DNA of 37,509 bases from a virus. Of this stretch, positions 14,646 to 35,884 are shown one piece after another. The stretch spans positions 1-37,509 of IMG/VR virus record IMGVR_UViG_3300045009_001106; one strand, written 5' to 3'. Numbering within the stretch: the first letter of the stretch is position 1; the number at the start of each line of letters is the position of its first letter. The notes beneath the pieces are model-generated. The model was not told the origin of the DNA and made no database searches. It saw nothing but the letters and a program-made list of their open reading frames with translations. The translations under genes and the position numbers were made by a program.

Positions 14646-15839
14646 TCAGGCGTTGACGCGCGCGGCGAAGTCCGCGAAGTACTTGTCCGTGATGCGCTGA
14701 CGGAAGGTGAGGTCTTCCACAGGCGGGATCGGCGTGTAGTCGTAGTCGATGATCAGCTTGCCGGACTTGAGCGACGGCGCGGAGTTGGCTTCCTCGTCGT
14801 ACCAGGCGCTGCCGTCCAGGATGTAGCCGAAGTTCTTCAGCTCGCGGAACTTGGCATTCACGCCTTCGATGATGTCCTTGACCAGTGAGGGGTGCAGCGG
14901 CTTGTCCACGGCCCAAAAGTGCGCCTCGGCGATCGAGTCGGCCAGGACCTGGGCCGTACGCGTGGCGCTCTCGAAGGCGAAGAGCGGGTCATCGCTGCAG
15001 GTGCGCGAGCCCCAGAACCGATAGCCCTGGGCGTTGATCAGCGCGGTGACCTCGTTCTCGTTGAGCAGGCCTGCGTCCGTCGCAGCCTCCTGCAGGTCCC
15101 AGTAGATGTCGCGGGACAGGCCGGTGACGCCGTTGATCGGCAGGTTGGACAGCGTCTTGTGCCAGCCGACCTCCTGGTCGATCTTGGCGCGCAGTCCCAG
15201 CGCGTAGGCCACCGGCGAAACGCTCACGGTCGCGTTGATCGTCGTGTCCCAGCGCGTGAACTCGGGGTGCAGCAGCATGAGCTCGCGCGCGCCGAACTTG
15301 TCGCGGTACGCGATCGCTTCGGCGATCGTCTCGGCACCGGCGGTGCTGGCATAGGCGAAGGCGCGGAGCTTCTGCGCGATCGCGACCAGGGCGGTCGTCA
15401 CCTCCTCGGAGTCGTACTCGGGAACGCCAAGGATGCGAGGCTTGACGCCGAGCTGGGTCTGCGCCGCGAGCAGCGCCTTCATGCCCGTGTACTGGCCGGA
15501 GGGCAACGTGGTGCCGATGATCTTGCTGACCTGGTCGGCGATCTTCGCCTCGGCGGTCTCGCCGACGCCGTCAGCGACGCGAACGACGACGACGATGGGC
15601 GAGGCTTGCTGGCTGATCGCATCCAGCGCGGCAGCGAGCGTGCCCTTCGTGCCGGCCTTACCGATGGCGCTGTTGACGTTGGTGATCAGCGCCGGCTTGT
15701 CCAGCGGGAACGTTCCCGCGTCAGCGTCCGCGGCCGTGGCCACGAGGCCGATGATCGCAGTGGAGATGGACCGGATCGGACGGACGCCCTCGTTGATCTC
15801 GATGACGCGAACGCCGTGATGGTAGGAGTCGAGTGCCAT
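14646..15839 (-). CDS. FI: Tail sheath protein FI
   Basis: 397 aa. Start MALDSYHHGVRVIEINEG chosen because homologues begin there and AAGGAG precedes it; a longer frame upstream lacks support. GVRPIRSISTAIIGLVATA is the N-terminal sheath signature and the C-terminus contains FRQRITDKYFADF. Contractile sheath around the FII tube. First gene of the leftward FI-D operon; its ribosome site lies in a hairpin. Confidence 0.96.
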   Translation of the reverse strand: MALDSYHHGVRVIEINEGVRPIRSISTAIIGLVATAADADAGTFPLDKPALITNVNSAIGKAGTKGTLAAALDAISQQASPIVVVVRVADGVGETAEAKIADQVSKIIGTTLPSGQYTGMKALLAAQTQLGVKPRILGVPEYDSEEVTTALVAIAQKLRAFAYASTAGAETIAEAIAYRDKFGARELMLLHPEFTRWDTTINATVSVSPVAYALGLRAKIDQEVGWHKTLSNLPINGVTGLSRDIYWDLQEAATDAGLLNENEVTALINAQGYRFWGSRTCSDDPLFAFESATRTAQVLADSIAEAHFWAVDKPLHPSLVKDIIEGVNAKFRELKNFGYILDGSAWYDEEANSAPSLKSGKLIIDYDYTPIPPVEDLTFRQRITDKYFADFAARVNA

Positions 15840-15868
15840 GGGGCTCCTTGCAATGAATGGGGAGCCCC
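15840..15868 (-). promoter_or_regulatory. Hairpin sequestering the FI ribosome binding site
   Basis: GGGGCTCC (15840-15847) and GGAGCCCC (15861-15868) are perfect complements separated by 13 nt. On the mRNA the 3' arm contains AAGGAG immediately before the FI ATG, so folding would hide it. The rest of 15869-16056 holds no gene; GTAGACC (15907) and GGTCTAC (15956) form a wide inverted repeat, of unknown meaning. Confidence 0.5.
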
Positions 15869-16056
15869 GCACCGGGGTGAGCCCCTGACGTGCCGGAGGC
15901 TCGAGAGTAGACCCGTGAATTTGCGATAGCCTACCGCTGACGTCACCTTGATTGAGGTCTACCCATGGCGTGCCAACTCACGCTTTGACTTGCACCAATG
16001 GGATGGACGGGGCTGCGCGTCACTGAGGTTCCATTTTTCGCGCGACGGGGAGACCG

Positions 16057-17835
16057 ATGGACTGCAAGATCTCTAAGGGAACTGGTTTCATCAAGGCGGT
16101 GGATTGGCTGGATATCCCGCCCCTAGCCGTCTTGACAGGAAAGAACGGAGCGGGAAAAACCCGTCTGCTCTCGATCATCGCTGGACAGAACAATGGCAGT
16201 CCGTTCAACGAAGGCTGTCAGGTAGACATCAGCGAGAAGTTCCTGCATTCCCAGATCACTCACTACCCCAGCCTTTGGCCAGTGCAGGTGACTTCTGGGG
16301 CATCAAGTGATGAAGTGGTCGACGCAATCAGGACGTTGGCTTCCGGAGTCAACTCGAATCAGCGCGATCTAAGCGCAGCGATGGGGGAAGATGTTCTCCG
16401 ACAGAGGCTGCTTCGACAACTTTCTGAGGAGCAGGGTGTTCCGATCAAGGAGATGTTGCGCAGCGGCGAGGTCACTCTTCAGCGTTACGTAACTCCGTCC
16501 GCACTCACGAGCTTTCGAGATCGCGGGTCATCGCAAGTGAGCCTCGCCTTCTACTTCCTCGCATATCAGTTGCTCTATGGCGTTGGAGAGCTCAACGGGG
16601 AGCCGCCGGACCACATTGTTGAACGCATTGGACCTCCGCCTTGGAAGGTCTTGAACAGCATACTGGCCGCGGCAGAACTTCCGTACGAGGTCGATGAGCC
16701 CTGGGTGCCAGACCTAACCGAAGCGGGCCTCTTCAATCGGTTTGAGTACTCCTTCAGGCTTCGCGACGTGACATCAAGAGCGGTTGTTCCGCCTGAGGCA
16801 CTCTCCTCTGGCGAGAAGGTCCTGATGGGCACATCGCTGTGGATGTTCAACATTCAGCACGGCGGACAGACCCCAAAGTTGCTCCTCCTGGATGAGCCCG
16901 ATGCGCACCTGCACCCGAAGATGGTGAGGCAACTGCTCAATGTCCTTCAAGAGGTATTTGTTGATAAGGCCGGAATTCGAGTGATCCTCACGACGCACTC
17001 GCCAACGACCGTGGCGATGGCTCCGCCTGGCTCGTTGTTCGAGTTGCGACGTGGTGAGCCAGCGGTCGAGAGGATCACAAAAGCAAAGGCTATCGGCAGC
17101 TTGACCGAGGGATTGGTCGTTGTGTCGGAAGGTTGGCCACTTGCTATGTGCGAGGGACCGCACGACCCAGAGTTCTATCGAATCGCCCTCGATAAGGTCC
17201 AATCTGCGCTCAATCCTGCTTACGCCATTGATCACATGGCTTTCATGCATGGGTGTGGTGTGACCACTGTGCAGTCAGTCGTTCCGGCTTCGCGCTCGCA
17301 GGGCCTGACTCACATGGTAGGGATCATTGACGCAGATTTTCCCGAAGGTCGTAGATCTAACGGCCGGAGCGGAAACGACGGCGTTGCCGTCCTTAAGCGA
17401 GGCGCGATCGAGAACTACCTCTGCGATCCATTGGTCATTTGGTTCGCGCATCGAAGTGACTCGAAGGACATTGACGGGGTGCGGGAGGAACTCATTCCGC
17501 GGGGTGGGCACGCGCGACTTCACCGATATATGCCGGAGCTACAGCAGATCGCAGATGACGTGCTGGGTATCCTGCTGAAGGCGCTGCCGGACGACGAAAC
17601 GCGTTCGAGGGAGCTGGTGAGTGTCAAGTTCATTGAGGGAGTTGAGCTCCAGTACCCCGAATGGCTCCTCTGCGAGCGCAAGGAAGTGCTCCTAGGTGCC
17701 TGCCGGATTGCGTTCCGGCTACTTCAAAACAATCAGCGACCTCGGCTACGAACCGCCTTTGCGGCGATCGGCCTCACGCCAGTCGACCTCCATGAGGTGC
17801 TGCGGCAGGCCTGCGGTCACGCAATGCAGACCTGA
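16057..17835 (+). CDS. ABC-type ATPase fused to DUF4435 (TOPRIM-like) nuclease; PARIS-like defence candidate
   Basis: 592 aa, GGGGAGA before the ATG. ATPase module: Walker A GKNGAGKT (28-35), signature LSSGE (249-253), Walker B LLLLDEPD (275-282), H-loop TTHSP (H314). C-terminal module from about 360: EGPHD (E366, D370), GIIDADF (D425, D427) and IENYL (451-455), the acidic and ENYL pattern of DUF4435/TOPRIM-like nucleases. Separate AriA (ATPase) and AriB (DUF4435) form PARIS anti-phage systems and fused versions are known; the overlap with OLD-class ATPases is the main alternative. Transcribed against the surrounding late genes and lower in G+C, so it is acquired cargo at the Z/fun site. Confidence 0.8.
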   Translation: MDCKISKGTGFIKAVDWLDIPPLAVLTGKNGAGKTRLLSIIAGQNNGSPFNEGCQVDISEKFLHSQITHYPSLWPVQVTSGASSDEVVDAIRTLASGVNSNQRDLSAAMGEDVLRQRLLRQLSEEQGVPIKEMLRSGEVTLQRYVTPSALTSFRDRGSSQVSLAFYFLAYQLLYGVGELNGEPPDHIVERIGPPPWKVLNSILAAAELPYEVDEPWVPDLTEAGLFNRFEYSFRLRDVTSRAVVPPEALSSGEKVLMGTSLWMFNIQHGGQTPKLLLLDEPDAHLHPKMVRQLLNVLQEVFVDKAGIRVILTTHSPTTVAMAPPGSLFELRRGEPAVERITKAKAIGSLTEGLVVVSEGWPLAMCEGPHDPEFYRIALDKVQSALNPAYAIDHMAFMHGCGVTTVQSVVPASRSQGLTHMVGIIDADFPEGRRSNGRSGNDGVAVLKRGAIENYLCDPLVIWFAHRSDSKDIDGVREELIPRGGHARLHRYMPELQQIADDVLGILLKALPDDETRSRELVSVKFIEGVELQYPEWLLCERKEVLLGACRIAFRLLQNNQRPRLRTAFAAIGLTPVDLHEVLRQACGHAMQT

Positions 17836-17865: not shown

Positions 17866-18411
17866 TCATCGCGAGCCCGAGTTGAGCGTCTGAGGTACAC
17901 CGCCTGCCAATGCCCCACAGATCGCCTGGATCCGCTCCGCATCGAATCGCCAGTTACTAGGAATCTCATCGGTAGTACCAGCGCCATGAGCTCGGCTCGT
18001 CCATACCTTTCGTTCATACAGAATCGTGTCACCTCTGCCCGACGCGGTAGACCTTAGTCGGGTGGCAATCTCGATCGGAGTCGCGAGGTACATCCGGGGC
18101 ATCTCGGTCACGGGAACACCCTTGAACTGAACCAAGCAGAGGGCAGTTCTCGCGCCATGGCGCGCAAGCCATGCGTCGATCGCAGAGTGGTAGTCGGCGG
18201 AGCCTTTGGTTAGGAGGCTCTGGGTTAGGCCCCACGACCCATCCTTGCTCCCCTTCACTGAGATCTTGAGTGCAACCGACCCGTTGTCAACGATCAGATC
18301 GTACTCAGGCTGGTTCGCGCCGTACTGAACTGAGACGTCCCAGCCGCATCGAGCAAACTGTGCCGCTGCGAACGCCTCTGCCGAGGTTGCCACGTGCCAC
18401 GAGGTCTTCAT
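17866..18411 (-). CDS. PD-(D/E)XK-like nuclease-fold protein, unknown function
   Basis: 181 aa with AGGAG before the ATG. SAEAFAAAQFARCGWDVSVQ, then EYDLIV (D38) and ISVKGS (K53), match the helix, Asp strand and xVK strand of small PD-(D/E)XK endonucleases (group I intron/phage type). The residue before V52-K53 is Ser instead of Glu/Gln, so activity is uncertain. It is convergent with the ATPase gene (stops 30 bp apart) and shares its lower G+C, so the two may be one cargo unit. A partner or antitoxin role is speculation. Confidence 0.6.
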   Translation of the reverse strand: MKTSWHVATSAEAFAAAQFARCGWDVSVQYGANQPEYDLIVDNGSVALKISVKGSKDGSWGLTQSLLTKGSADYHSAIDAWLARHGARTALCLVQFKGVPVTEMPRMYLATPIEIATRLRSTASGRGDTILYERKVWTSRAHGAGTTDEIPSNWRFDAERIQAICGALAGGVPQTLNSGSR

Positions 18412-18467: not shown

Positions 18468-19271
18468 TCAGAACAGTCCGCCCGACGTTGAAGCATCCCA
18501 GTTCGTGATCACGAGCTCACCGGAGGCCGGGCGCTGTTCCACATCGCGGCCATTGCCCACGGAGTAGCGGATCTCCAGCCCTTCCATCCAGAAGCCATCG
18601 AAGCAGCGCCGGATCTCGGGATGGTCGTTGATGCTGACCATCACCTTGCCCTTCGCTCGGCGCATGAAGTCGGCCATCCGCTCATAGTTGTCGAAGGTCC
18701 AGTCAGTGCCGTAACCCTCGGTCTCCCAGTACGGCGGGTCGGCGTAAACGAACGTGTGGGCGCGGTCGTAGCGCTGCATGACGTCGAACCACGGCAGGTT
18801 CTCGATGTAGGTCCCCGCCAGGCGGAGGTGGGCCGCGCTGAGCTGCTCCTCGATGCGACACAGGTTGATGGCGGGCGCGGTTGTCGCCGTGCCGAAGCTC
18901 TGGCCCGCAACCCGACCGCCGAAGGCGTGGTGCTGCAGGTAGTAAAACCGCGCGGCGCGCTGGATGTCGGTGAGCGTCTCCGGGCGGGTGAGCTGCTGCC
19001 ACTTGAAGACCTCGCGGCTGGACAGGGCCCACTTGAACTGCCGGACGAACTCCTCGAGGTGATGCTGGACGACTCGGTAGAGGTTCACCAGCTCGCCGTT
19101 GATGTCGTTGAGGACTTCCGTCCTCGCCGGCACAGGGCGGAGGAAGTAGAGCGCGGCGCCGCCACAGAAGGCTTCGACGTAGCAGTCGTGCTGCGGGAAC
19201 AGGGGGATCAGGCGGTCCGCCAGGCGACGCTTTCCGCCAAGCCAGGGAACGATGGGGGAGGGTTGGTACAT
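18468..19271 (-). CDS. DNA adenine methyltransferase (Dam-type, D12 class)
   Basis: 267 aa; ATG at 19271 chosen because the D12 N-terminal motif follows at once (PSPIVPWLGGKRRLADRLIP, AdoMet binding). YVEAFCGGAALYF is the second part, and VYADPPYWETEGY holds catalytic DPPY. Middle region supplies target recognition. It modifies adenine, probably protecting phage DNA from host restriction or acting in an island-level self-protection. No cognate endonuclease is recognisable. Lies between the fibre genes and the nuclease cargo. Confidence 0.92.
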   Translation of the reverse strand: MYQPSPIVPWLGGKRRLADRLIPLFPQHDCYVEAFCGGAALYFLRPVPARTEVLNDINGELVNLYRVVQHHLEEFVRQFKWALSSREVFKWQQLTRPETLTDIQRAARFYYLQHHAFGGRVAGQSFGTATTAPAINLCRIEEQLSAAHLRLAGTYIENLPWFDVMQRYDRAHTFVYADPPYWETEGYGTDWTFDNYERMADFMRRAKGKVMVSINDHPEIRRCFDGFWMEGLEIRYSVGNGRDVEQRPASGELVITNWDASTSGGLF

Positions 19272-19335
19272 CGGAATGAGAGAGGGCGCCGCGAGGGCGC
19301 CCGGGTACTGCTGAGGGTGGGGCGTGCTGCGGCGC

Positions 19336-19599
19336 TCAGAGGCTGCAGGCGAGGGCAATGAGGCCACCGATGGCCGTTGCTGCGGCGTCGCGCAGGTCAG
19401 GTGTGTGCTTGGCGCGATTGCGAAGGTCGTAGGCCTCTTTTGCGCAGGCTGCGATCACGACGACTGCATAGGCAGCGATCGCCACCTCAGCCGCGGTTCC
19501 GCCCAGAGCCAGTGCGACCACGCGCGCAGCTCCAAACAGCACGACGCCGCCGAGACAGTGCAGGGCCTTGTCGTGCGGGATGAGGGCGGCGATGCTCAC
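19336..19599 (-). CDS. Small membrane protein, YfiM-like (DUF2279-like)
   Basis: 87 aa, GTG start overlapping the previous stop (GTGA). HDKALHCLGGVVLFGAA, two hydrophobic spans and YDLRNRAKHTPDLRDAAAT match the HDKxxH/KExYD/TPDxxD pattern of YfiM/DUF2279-type proteins found in tailed phages. Likely inner-membrane; function unknown, sometimes near lysis genes. Confidence 0.65.
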   Translation of the reverse strand: MSIAALIPHDKALHCLGGVVLFGAARVVALALGGTAAEVAIAAYAVVVIAACAKEAYDLRNRAKHTPDLRDAAATAIGGLIALACSL

Positions 19600-19753: not shown

Positions 19754-20938
19754 TCAGAGTTCAGCGGTGAGGGAGTAGTCGAAGCCGTAGACCCGGCCGA
19801 TGGTGAGCCCGACGCTGGTGAGCAGACGCGGGCCAGATTGCCGTCCGGCGGTCGCCGTGGTGATGGTGATGGGGTTACCGGTGGACCAGTCGGTGACCGC
19901 GCCGGCTACCCGACCGCCCACTGCCTTGATGGTGACCGTCGGGGTCGCACGCATCTGCACGGGCGGGATCGAACCCATCGTTATCAGCCAGCTCGTGTTC
20001 GACGCGACCGCGTTGGCGTGGGCGTCGCCCAGCGCGCTGGTGGCCTGGTCGAATGTGTCGGTCTGGAAGTAGTAGCGCTGGCACAGCAGGAGCTCGACAC
20101 TGAGGGGGCGCACATCGAAGGAGGTTGCGGTGGAGCCTTTCTCCAGTTGGATGCCCGTGACCTGGAGCGACGCCCCCAGCGTCTCGATCAGGTTCACGTC
20201 GCCGGTCGTGCGAATGAAGTTGCCGGCCTGCCAGACGTTGGCCTGGTCGGTGATGGCGCCGTTGCCGCTGCCGATGTTCCAGTCCAGCAGCATCCCGAGG
20301 ACGGGCCCCTTGTTCCACTTGCCGATCTTGGGGCCGGGAATCGCGAGCACCTTCTTCTCCCAGGTGTTCGCCTTCTCCACGGTGTAGGTGGCCGCGTACG
20401 TGACCTCCTGCGATCCACCGGCCGACCGAATCGCCAGTGTGTACTTGCCGATGATGGACGCCTTGACCAAGAACGAGACGCAAAAGTCCTGCGCGTCCTC
20501 AGTCCCGAAGGCCAGGTCGGCCAGGTACGTGCCCTCGACGGGATGCTCAAGGGCCTCGACTTGGTCGGCGCCGACGGCTTCGGCGGTCGTCACCAGCACC
20601 TTGAGCGAAGCGGAGAAGCCGGCAGGGGCGTCGGTGGACTGCTGGAGCGTGAACCGACCCACCGGCAGGTCATTCCCCGCCAGGCGGAAGCGGTCGACGG
20701 GATACGCGAGGTAGCGCGACACGTTCACCAGCGCGGCGCCGCTGTTGCGCTGGTCGATTCGCATGTCGCCGTTGACGATCCGATTCTTGAACGTGAAGGC
20801 GCGGCTTGCGACCTTGCCATCGAGGTCCGAGGCGGCGGTGGCGACCTTGGCGTCGATCTGCGCCATCTTGCCGACGACTTCGGCGGTGAGTCCACTGGTC
20901 GACGTGATCAGGGCGGCGACTTGCTGTTCCAAACTCAT
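19754..20938 (-). CDS. Tail fibre distal / receptor-binding protein
   Basis: 394 aa. Short N-terminal helix (MSLEQQVAALITSTSGL) then KNRIVNGDMRIDQRNSGA, followed by Thr/Gly/Val-rich beta-sandwich repeats (ASLQVTGIQLEKGSTATSFD). This NGDMRI/LEKG pattern is found in phage receptor-binding domains with carbohydrate-binding folds. Starts within the stop of the H-like gene (ATGA). Sets host range; likely swapped by recombination. Confidence 0.8.
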   Translation of the reverse strand: MSLEQQVAALITSTSGLTAEVVGKMAQIDAKVATAASDLDGKVASRAFTFKNRIVNGDMRIDQRNSGAALVNVSRYLAYPVDRFRLAGNDLPVGRFTLQQSTDAPAGFSASLKVLVTTAEAVGADQVEALEHPVEGTYLADLAFGTEDAQDFCVSFLVKASIIGKYTLAIRSAGGSQEVTYAATYTVEKANTWEKKVLAIPGPKIGKWNKGPVLGMLLDWNIGSGNGAITDQANVWQAGNFIRTTGDVNLIETLGASLQVTGIQLEKGSTATSFDVRPLSVELLLCQRYYFQTDTFDQATSALGDAHANAVASNTSWLITMGSIPPVQMRATPTVTIKAVGGRVAGAVTDWSTGNPITITTATAGRQSGPRLLTSVGLTIGRVYGFDYSLTAEL

Positions 20939-21444
20939 TTGAGGGCTCCGGAGAGGTAGGGGTGAAGGGTGATGCGCTGCAGATCCACGATGGCGCGCGC
21001 CATCGAGGTGAACTCCTCGGCCAGCGACAGGTTGAGGTCGCCCGTGGTCTCGATGACGACGGAGCCAGCGGGGACACCGGACAGGACCAGGTCGAAACCG
21101 AGAAGCAGATCAGTGCCGTCCGCCTTGTAGGCGAGCGGCTTCTTCGGATCGCTCCAGATCGCGAGGAAGGTGCCGTCGCTCAGGACGAAGCCGACCTCCC
21201 GAATCCAGAACTCGGTGGGACCGTCGGCCTTGGCCGCGATGTGCAGTTGACGCGGCCCGACAACCTTCCCGCCGGAGACAGGGAAGCGGGCGCGCTCGCT
21301 GCGCAGGCCGAGCTGCGTCTGCACAGGCGTGTAGGCCGCGTCGCCCAGGGCGACGTAGGCGACCTTTCCGGCAAGGCCGTCACCGGATTGCTGCAGCAGC
21401 GCCGCTAGGCCGACCTCCAGGGTGGTGGTCACAAGGGTGGACAT
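20935..21444 (-). CDS. H: Tail fibre N-terminal protein (gpH-like, baseplate-attaching part)
   Basis: 169 aa, MSTLVTTTLEVGLAALLQQ, then KVAYVALGDAAYTPVQTQLGL and TEFWIREVGFVLSDGTFLAIW, the conserved N-terminus of P2-type fibres (DUF3751-like). P2 H has this plus a long fibre; here the distal part is a separate gene, the next one. Overlaps I by 4 bp (ATGA). The start excludes a longer, shadow-like extension. Confidence 0.85.
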   Translation of the reverse strand: MSTLVTTTLEVGLAALLQQSGDGLAGKVAYVALGDAAYTPVQTQLGLRSERARFPVSGGKVVGPRQLHIAAKADGPTEFWIREVGFVLSDGTFLAIWSDPKKPLAYKADGTDLLLGFDLVLSGVPAGSVVIETTGDLNLSLAEEFTSMARAIVDLQRITLHPYLSGALK

Positions 21445-22091
21445 CAGGACTCCATGCTTGCGCGAACGATGGATACGACCCGTGCGGCGGTCGCGACGCG
21501 CAGGGGTTGGGACATGGGGGATGGCTGCACGGGCAGCGCGTCGAACGCGGTGCGCGCGAGCGCGGCGGATGCCAGTGCGGACCCCACGCGCAAGCCACCA
21601 TCGAACCGGGCGCCTACGGTGAGCTGGTAGTGGCTGCGCTCGTTCTTCACCGCGTCGACCATGCGGCGGATGCGTGCGTACAGCTCGAGGTTGATGAGGC
21701 CGTCGTCGCCGGCGTTCGGGTTGGCGCCTGCCCAGACCGTGAGCGAGAACGTATAGGGGGCCCCGCCCGTCTGTTGCCACTCCGCCAGGTCGATCGACGC
21801 GCCGATGGCGTCCAGCACCCGCCGGATGGCGCCGGCGGTGCCCTTGCGCTGGTGGATCGCCACCGAGTCGCGCACCAGCGCGCGCCTGGCTGTCTCCGTG
21901 AGGGCCTCCTGCCAGCCGTCTGTGGATGCGCCCCAGGCGAGCCAGGGGAGGAATGCTGCCGGGATCCTGCTGGAGTCGCCCAGGGTGCGCAGCGGTGCCG
22001 GATCGATGACCGGTGCCGAGACTGCGGCGGCGGCGCGCTCCAGGCGCGTCGCGGACGGCGGCAGCAGAGATGGGATGGGGCCGAGCGTCAT
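21444..22091 (-). CDS. I: Tail protein I (baseplate wedge/fibre connection)
   Basis: 215 aa. MTLGPIPSLLPPSATRLERA, then IPAAFLPWLAWGASTDGWQ and HQRKGTAGAIRRVLDAIG are the hallmarks of P2 gpI. Baseplate protein that links the wedge to the fibre. Overlaps J by 4 bp. Confidence 0.94.
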   Translation of the reverse strand: MTLGPIPSLLPPSATRLERAAAAVSAPVIDPAPLRTLGDSSRIPAAFLPWLAWGASTDGWQEALTETARRALVRDSVAIHQRKGTAGAIRRVLDAIGASIDLAEWQQTGGAPYTFSLTVWAGANPNAGDDGLINLELYARIRRMVDAVKNERSHYQLTVGARFDGGLRVGSALASAALARTAFDALPVQPSPMSQPLRVATAARVVSIVRASMES

Positions 22092-24713: not shown

Positions 24714-25499
24714 TCAAACCGCTGAACGAAGGGGTTTGCCGATAACCACCTGATACAGCGGCATGTCGGGGAAATACTTCAGCGAAATCTCGGCGATCAA
24801 GTAGGTCTCGCTAGCGACCACTTGCTCGCGGATAAGCAGTGGCTGCTTGTGTTGCTTCCGCTCTGGCTCGAAGCCACCGACAAAGTAGCTTGCGCTTCCG
24901 ACGTCATCGATGATGAGAGGTAAAAGGAGCGGCTGAAAGCCATTCACCCCGAGCTCGTAACAGGCAAAAGCGTGTGCGGTTTTCGCCAGTACGCGCATAA
25001 CCGTTCGAGGGTGAATGCCGGCAGACGACCAAACGATATCGCGTAGGCCGAGTTTGCGTGAGATTTTCGAACTCTGCGTGGTGTCTAGCCCAAACGTCAG
25101 GCCTACGCTAGCTTCAATGTCGGGTGACAGGCCTTGTAGCAGGCCAGGCGTCGGCAGATGCACCACCATTGGCATCCGGGGGCAGTCACTTCGCGATATT
25201 TCTACAGTCACCTCCTCCCCTCTTGAGTCCAAGCCCGTAATCGGGACCTTCTTTGACATCAACGCTTCGCGACTTTCCTTGTCACGCGTCGGTACGCCGT
25301 CTAGTGCGCGCTGTACGCCGTAGGTCTCTCGAGACATTCCCGTCTCAAGCGCTGACGTTATATCTCCGTGTTTCTTACAGCTGGCCCGCTGAAGGACAAT
25401 GTCGCCGCCGAGAGAGCGGGCTATAACGTGTTCTTTAGTAAGCGGCCCATCCGTGCGTCCACAGTAGATGCATTCATTAGCGAATCGCGCGGCAGTCAT
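24714..25499 (-). CDS. HNH-type nuclease, defence or moron candidate
   Basis: 261 aa. The first 45 residues have C10-x2-C13, E23-H24 in KEHVIARSLGGD and C41-x2-H44, the zinc-bound HNH/beta-beta-alpha fold. The remainder (IPITGLDSRGEEVTVEI, then beta-rich C-terminus) is not recognised and may sense or bind the target. Base composition is clearly lower in G+C than the tail genes. Divergent from the HEPN-motif gene, 205 bp away, between V and S: the orf30 cargo site of P2. Homing endonuclease is an alternative. Confidence 0.72.
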   Translation of the reverse strand: MTAARFANECIYCGRTDGPLTKEHVIARSLGGDIVLQRASCKKHGDITSALETGMSRETYGVQRALDGVPTRDKESREALMSKKVPITGLDSRGEEVTVEISRSDCPRMPMVVHLPTPGLLQGLSPDIEASVGLTFGLDTTQSSKISRKLGLRDIVWSSAGIHPRTVMRVLAKTAHAFACYELGVNGFQPLLLPLIIDDVGSASYFVGGFEPERKQHKQPLLIREQVVASETYLIAEISLKYFPDMPLYQVVIGKPLRSAV

Positions 25500-35464: not shown

Positions 35465-35884
35465 TCAATCGGCAAGTTGGAACTGCAGCTCATGTCCGGT
35501 CGCCTTGAAAGCTTTGGCCAAGGTATCAATTTTTGTTGTGTGGTGCAAATCAAGGATTCGATGCACTTCTTGTCGTGAGATACCCATTCCGCTAGCCAAG
35601 TCGGACGGCCGCATGCGCTTTTCCACGAGCGCATTGAGCAGCAAAACTTTAGCTTGCACCGAGAGAGGAAGCGTCACAAGTTCTTCTCCATCCTCGCAAG
35701 CGCTGGGGGTGGGAACCGCGCGCTCATCTTCGATGTAGAAATCCATTGACGTGATCAGCGCGTCGAGTGCCATAGCTCGTGCGTCTTGTAGATCATCCCC
35801 TTGCGTAATTGCTTCGGGAATGTCCCGGAAGGTTACGACATACCCTCCGCCATCCTGTTCGAATTTGGCGGGGAAACTAAACAT
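35465..35884 (-). CDS. hicB: HicB-type antitoxin
   Basis: 139 aa. MFSFPAKFEQDGGGYVVTFRD, then IPEAITQGDDLQDARAMALDAL is the HicB RNase-H-like fold. The C-terminus (DLASGMGISRQEVHRILDLHH) is an HTH, which can repress the operon. Neutralises HicA. AGGAG precedes the ATG; a TTGACT hexamer (35947-35952, minus) upstream may give hicB its own promoter. Confidence 0.93.
   Translation of the reverse strand: MFSFPAKFEQDGGGYVVTFRDIPEAITQGDDLQDARAMALDALITSMDFYIEDERAVPTPSACEDGEELVTLPLSVQAKVLLLNALVEKRMRPSDLASGMGISRQEVHRILDLHHTTKIDTLAKAFKATGHELQFQLAD

Follow-up and report, generated by a model that had tools for sequence, protein, structure and literature searches.

A predicted PARIS-like fusion of an ABC ATPase and an AriB-type nuclease in the tail-gene cargo site of a P2-like prophage

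The fused gene and its location

The DNA examined here (the window, that is, the whole stretch at its full length) is a virus record from IMG/VR, 37509 bp long. It begins with the 3' end of the host serS gene, recognized by eye, and a tRNA-Ser(CGA) gene (741-828), positions 1-828 being the apparent integration site, and continues with an integrase (942-2048); because these three elements come in succession, we consider the record to represent an integrated prophage. No att repeat of at least 12 nt for the end of the tRNA was found in the window. On the minus strand, the genes follow the P2-like order, namely, gpI, the fibre genes, cargo, the sheath gene FI, and the tape-measure and tail genes including gpD. 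The position between gpFI and the fibre genes is one that we take to be the Z/fun site of P2. In this region, the following features were identified:

14646..15872, minus strand: tail sheath gene gpFI, the left border of the cargo site
15831..16056, plus strand: intergenic stretch between the divergent sheath and fused genes, containing GGGGAG
16057..17835, plus strand: fused ABC-ATPase / predicted AriB-type TOPRIM protein, 592 aa
16057..17106, plus strand: ABC-ATPase sensor domain (predicted), residues 1-350
17107..17136, plus strand: low-confidence linker, residues ~351-360, pLDDT 61
17134..17832, plus strand: predicted AriB-type TOPRIM nuclease domain, residues 360-592
17866..18411, minus strand: PD-(D/E)XK_5-like orphan ORF, Pfam 23.2 bits against a cut-off of 26.1
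18468..19367, minus strand: D12 adenine methylase within the cargo interval, GC3 0.87, phage-like
19754..22091, minus strand: fibre genes and gpI, the right border of the cargo site

As originally predicted, the fused gene is a single intact reading frame of 592 codons that starts with ATG and has no internal stop. Directly 5' of the ATG, a ribosome-binding-like GGGGAG was recognized by eye; no match to a sigma-70-type promoter was detected in the upstream stretch (15831..16056), nor was a terminator match found for this gene. All the motifs named in the original prediction are located at the residues given there: in the ATPase half, Walker A (GKNGAGKT, 28-35), the LSSGE signature (249-253), Walker B (LLLLDEPD, 275-282) and the H-loop histidine H314; in the nuclease half, EGPHD (366-370), DADF (425-428) and IENYL (451-455), with E366, D425, D427 and E452 forming the acidic set. 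In an alignment of 50 relatives, this acidic set is invariant, and so are G252, E253, D279, E280 and H314 of the ATPase.

The opposite orientation of the gene with respect to the late genes and its lower G+C content likewise bear out the initial description: GC is 0.574 and GC3 0.66, against 0.66-0.70 and 0.79-0.91, respectively, in the phage genes. Together with the convergent PD-(D/E)XK-like ORF (GC3 0.67), which is only 30 bp away, the fused gene makes up a compositionally foreign, low-GC island. In the window, gpI and FI lie about 5.6 kb apart, compared with mostly 1.8-3.5 kb, filled by fibre genes, in the relatives retrieved with the sheath protein. In the Pseudomonas phage vB_PaeM-D14A (BK061475, Citexvirus), FI and the fibre-assembly gene are immediate neighbours, an example of this site lacking cargo of the kind described here. 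Some of the related phages carry low-GC cargo at this position, acyltransferases in three of them (L148-L150) and a D12 methylase in another (L185); the cargo identified in these relatives consists of surface acyltransferases and a DNA methylase. The claim that this is a P2-type cargo site is borne out with respect to the lower-GC cargo in the gpFI-fibre interval; the P2 hotspot that was actually tested (PMC9122126), however, is a different one, the gpA-gpQ (old/tin) locus.

Two further genes of the window deserve mention. An HNH_5-like ORF (24714-25499, minus strand) lies between baseplate genes, 7 kb from the fused gene, and may represent a second piece of cargo or an insertion of the homing type, and a HicB-like antitoxin or regulator (phrog_497; 35465-35884, minus strand) is encoded near the right end.

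The ATPase domain

The N-terminal half of the fused protein matched the Pfam families AAA_21 (66.4 bits, cut-off 27) and AAA_15 (48.8 bits, cut-off 32.1), so its motifs are not fortuitous, and the protein contains an ABC ATPase of the AAA_15/AAA_21 type above the Pfam cut-offs, as expected of PARIS. The full-length structural model had a pLDDT of 86.5 and a pTM of 0.65, the latter value leaving the arrangement of the domains uncertain. The whole-protein fold search was informative for the ATPase half only: the best solved matches for residues 1-354 were many ABC/SMC-type ATPases, including PtuA of Septu and of retrons, which, judging from the model, reflects a common fold that is not diagnostic of PARIS. 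Similarly, in profile-profile comparison, the N-terminal domain matched the corresponding domains of AriA, OLD and the recognized fusions at 99.5-99.8% each, so that by this measure the ATPase does not appear to discriminate PARIS from OLD. The insert between Walker A and the signature spans 213 aa in the fused protein (family median 248), compared with 314-337 aa (about 320; measurable in four of the nine) in two-gene AriA and about 144 aa in the recognized fusions. Given that the insert is shorter than that of two-gene AriA, the trigger may differ as well.

The nuclease domain

The original prediction assigned the C-terminal half to the DUF4435 type. At the level of Pfam, this assignment falls short, with 15.8 bits over residues 365-458 against a cut-off of 27, and only 8 of the 50 relatives matched DUF4435 at an E-value of 0.01. 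The assignment to the AriB type, in contrast, is upheld by profile and by fold. The profile of the C-terminal domain matched AriB (nine DUF4435 loci, each immediately preceded by an ORF of 381-479 codons) at 97.6% and the fused DUF4435 set (fourteen longer DUF4435 ORFs, mostly fused) at 98.9%, as opposed to 18% for 23 OLD TOPRIM domains. Modelled alone, this domain reached a pLDDT of 85.9 and a pTM of 0.84, and structural comparison singled out two solved AriB chains as its best counterparts. In the Foldseek search, these chains, 8ux9_A (4.4e-5) and 8v46_D (1.2e-4), were the only ones with E-values below 0.001, followed by OLD at 0.012; the VIA comparison gave Z 12.7 for 8ux9_A (198 residues, rmsd 3.8) and Z 11.8 for 8v46_D (197 residues, rmsd 4.1). 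The DxD...EN pattern is frequent in the AriB and fused sets but present in only 1 of the 23 OLD domains. No sequence match to AriB was obtained when the profile of the C-terminal domain was run against the PDB; with the reference AriB unmatched by sequence, the tRNA-contacting lysines K60/K64 were not placed on the fused protein. Because the profile-profile comparison, the fold and the motifs agree, we assign the nuclease half, as judged from sequence profiles and modelling, to the AriB/DUF4435-like type, with the TOPRIM fold (as modelled) and the acidic motifs that are characteristic of PARIS.

The principal competing explanation is that the protein is a DNase of the OLD kind, regulated by its ATPase and attacking phage DNA in the manner of P2 Old or GajA, with a TOPRIM domain that has drifted. 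The ATPase domain lends itself to this reading, matching the N-terminal domains of OLD as well as those of AriA (99.8% each), and a careful tree joins the family to the OLD ATPases, albeit weakly (87/53); moreover, in the fold comparison, OLD C-terminal domains rank next after AriB (Z 7.7 and 7.6). The nuclease half, however, speaks for AriB in each comparison: besides the disparity between the profile matches, the Z-scores differ by 4-5, the EN motif is rare in OLD, and Pfam yielded no match to the OLD-like TOPRIM (PF20469) in the window. We therefore regard an OLD-like DNase as unlikely and reject a plain OLD TOPRIM, the finding that, according to the original prediction, would have spoken against it.

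Relatives of the fused gene

Database searches returned 9 plasmid, 52 genome and 22 viral loci, the weakest of which are other ATPases; the 22 viral contigs came from the alignment-based search, the single-sequence scan of the viral contigs having detected no relatives, and phage records contained no close ones. In all, there are about 70 relatives, single-ORF fusions that are recurrently phage-borne and represent at least eight phyla (Pseudomonadota, Bacteroidota, Cyanobacteriota, Actinomycetota, Planctomycetota, Acidobacteriota, Verrucomicrobiota and Candidatus Uhriibacteriota). Among the close relatives, each full-length copy is encoded by one ORF, about 560-680 aa in length. No gene recurs as a partner beside the relatives, and the fusion is self-contained, in agreement with the proposal that no separate partner is required.

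The relatives in phage contexts are flanked by a variety of genes, namely, terminase (L059), spanins and tail genes (L063, L064, L074), a DNA-pilot/head gene (L068) and a P2-type baseplate gene (L022), and this variety suggests that the family was repeatedly gained as a moron. Type I restriction subunits are encoded near two relatives (L003, L048), a proximity that may, by analogy, fit the PARIS logic of guarding restriction. Several other observations concern individual copies. In three different phages, the window and two others (L063 and L074), the family gene is followed downstream by a D12 adenine methylase, which may reflect either chance or a common cargo habit. UmuD/UmuC-like (Y-family polymerase) genes occur within about 2 kb of family members in four unrelated loci, annotated as such in L006 and grouped with it by sequence in L067, L068 and L074. 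The Acinetobacter copy (L014:5347-7206) is split by one in-frame stop, due either to decay or to a sequencing error.

Another possibility is that the fused gene is a moron without a defence role, maintaining a plasmid or prophage, or a decaying passenger. The cargo of this site does include acyltransferases and a methylase, one class of the OLD family is non-antiviral in archaea (PMC12796447), and the Acinetobacter relative contains a stop. Nevertheless, we consider this explanation improbable given that the gene in the window has an intact frame with the full catalytic set, the catalytic residues are invariant across phyla, and the nearest folds and profiles are those of defence nucleases. 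Even less probable is a two-component defence cassette comprising the fused gene and the convergent PD-(D/E)XK-like ORF: a similar, low GC3 and a shared island speak for it, whereas the strands are convergent, about 70 relatives occur without this ORF, no homologue of it was found beside any of them, and searches for it in phage and plasmid records came back empty, a single viral contig (L211) being its one match. Since this ORF is not conserved next to the relatives, we do not judge it to be part of the system and reject it as a partner.

Place among the PARIS systems

Single-gene fusions of the ATPase with DUF4435 were already described as PARIS in 2022 (PMC9122126), so a compact variant, as the gene was initially viewed, is not new in itself. 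In that study, PARIS, fused and two-gene forms together, was found in 5.2% of genomes; the two-gene form was recognized by a DUF4435 score exceeding the 27-bit cut-off of Pfam, and fused AriAB by profile thresholds of 80 or 20 bits. In PADLOC, the window protein matched AriA (5e-20) and ATPase-Toprim_I-B (7e-20) as well as the fused AriAB model PDLC02981 (56.2 bits, 6e-16, residues 234-461, covering both domains), which is not the profile of PMC9122126 itself. The second model, PDLC02982 (570 aa), did not match the window protein; on this model, the recognized Pfam-DUF4435 fusions score 166-616 bits, and one family member (L012) scores 100 bits. On these profiles, then, the family appears to be mostly missed by the Pfam DUF4435 cut-off and to be weak or absent on the curated fused-AriAB models.

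In the tree of the ATPases, the present family comprised one clade with full support (100/100), apart from the recognized fusions (100/99), two-gene AriA and OLD, with weakly supported deep branching. A single clade of all fusions was not rejected by the AU test (p 0.276), and for this reason we do not claim independent fusion; an independent origin is possible. Among 398 Pseudomonadota genomes, DUF4435 was matched in 22 and the fused family was detected in 3, with no overlap; these counts are lower bounds, three candidates per genome having been scored, and one of the three family genomes was the centre of the sample. Because the three family genomes are absent from the 22, surveys of ATPase-TOPRIM defence probably undercount the fused family, if only modestly. 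On the strength of the tree, the insert lengths, the scores on PDLC02982 and the lack of overlap with the DUF4435 genomes, we classify the protein as PARIS-like and assign it to a fused lineage of its own, rather than counting it as a PARIS member under the DUF4435 criterion of that study.

Predicted function

In two-gene PARIS, a homohexamer of AriA holds up to three AriB subunits; once set free by anti-restriction triggers such as Ocr, AriB forms a dimer that cleaves tRNA-Lys (PMC12409363, PMC11455837). On the basis of homology, the fused protein probably senses a phage protein, cuts RNA and causes abortive infection, and it is with fair confidence that we predict it to be a prophage-borne, single-polypeptide, PARIS-like abortive-infection protein. 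In the mechanism that we propose, the ATPase part would oligomerise and keep the nuclease inactive until it is bound by a protein from an infecting phage; a rearrangement of the ATPase would then allow two tethered nuclease domains to pair and to cleave RNA, most likely tRNA as AriB does, whereupon translation would stop, the invader would be blocked and the lysogen population would be protected. Being covalently attached, the nuclease would have to be activated in place, without the release of free AriB that is typical of two-gene PARIS, cleavage of the linker being the one exception.

Our broader proposal is more tentative, and we consider it rather less probable than the alternative that it does not hold as a whole: these proteins would be an independently evolved lineage of ATPase-AriB fusions that are mostly missed by current defence profiles and activated in place, through pairing of the nuclease domains within the ATPase assembly, with the different insert sensing triggers other than Ocr-type proteins. 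Whether fused PARIS resembles the two-gene form or is a separate OLD class is a question already posed (PMC10568477). Natural fusions with the AriB catalytic set offer a direct test of whether the release of AriB is needed for its action.

Comparison with known systems

With two-gene PARIS (the E. coli B185 type; 8ux9, 8v46), the predicted protein shares the combination of an ABC ATPase with an AriB-type TOPRIM nuclease, the E, DxD and EN acidic motifs, and carriage by P2/P4-type elements. It differs in that both domains belong to one polypeptide, from which the effector could not come free without cleavage, in that the ATPase belongs to a separate clade, and in the insert of about 213 aa versus about 314-337. 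The AriAB fusions (PDLC02981, PDLC02982; PMC9122126) have the same order of domains in one gene but differ by the separate, well-supported clade, by their insert of about 144 aa and by their scores on PDLC02982 (166-616 bits), a model that the window protein does not match, its score on PDLC02981 being 56 bits.

OLD of class 1 and GajA of Gabija similarly combine an ATPase with a downstream TOPRIM domain; the TOPRIM domain of the window protein, however, differs from theirs in type, as judged by both profile and fold, and there is no UvrD-like partner. Gabija can be rejected given that the neighbours are the sheath gene, the PD-(D/E)XK-like ORF and the D12 methylase, with no adjacent UvrD-like GajB, and Septu given that no HNH nuclease PtuB is adjacent. 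PtuA of Septu and the ATPases of the retrons Ec78 and Ec83 share the ATPase domain fold and are among the best matches of the N-terminal domain; in those systems, the nuclease is a separate HNH protein, whereas here the predicted AriB-type domain is attached to the ATPase.
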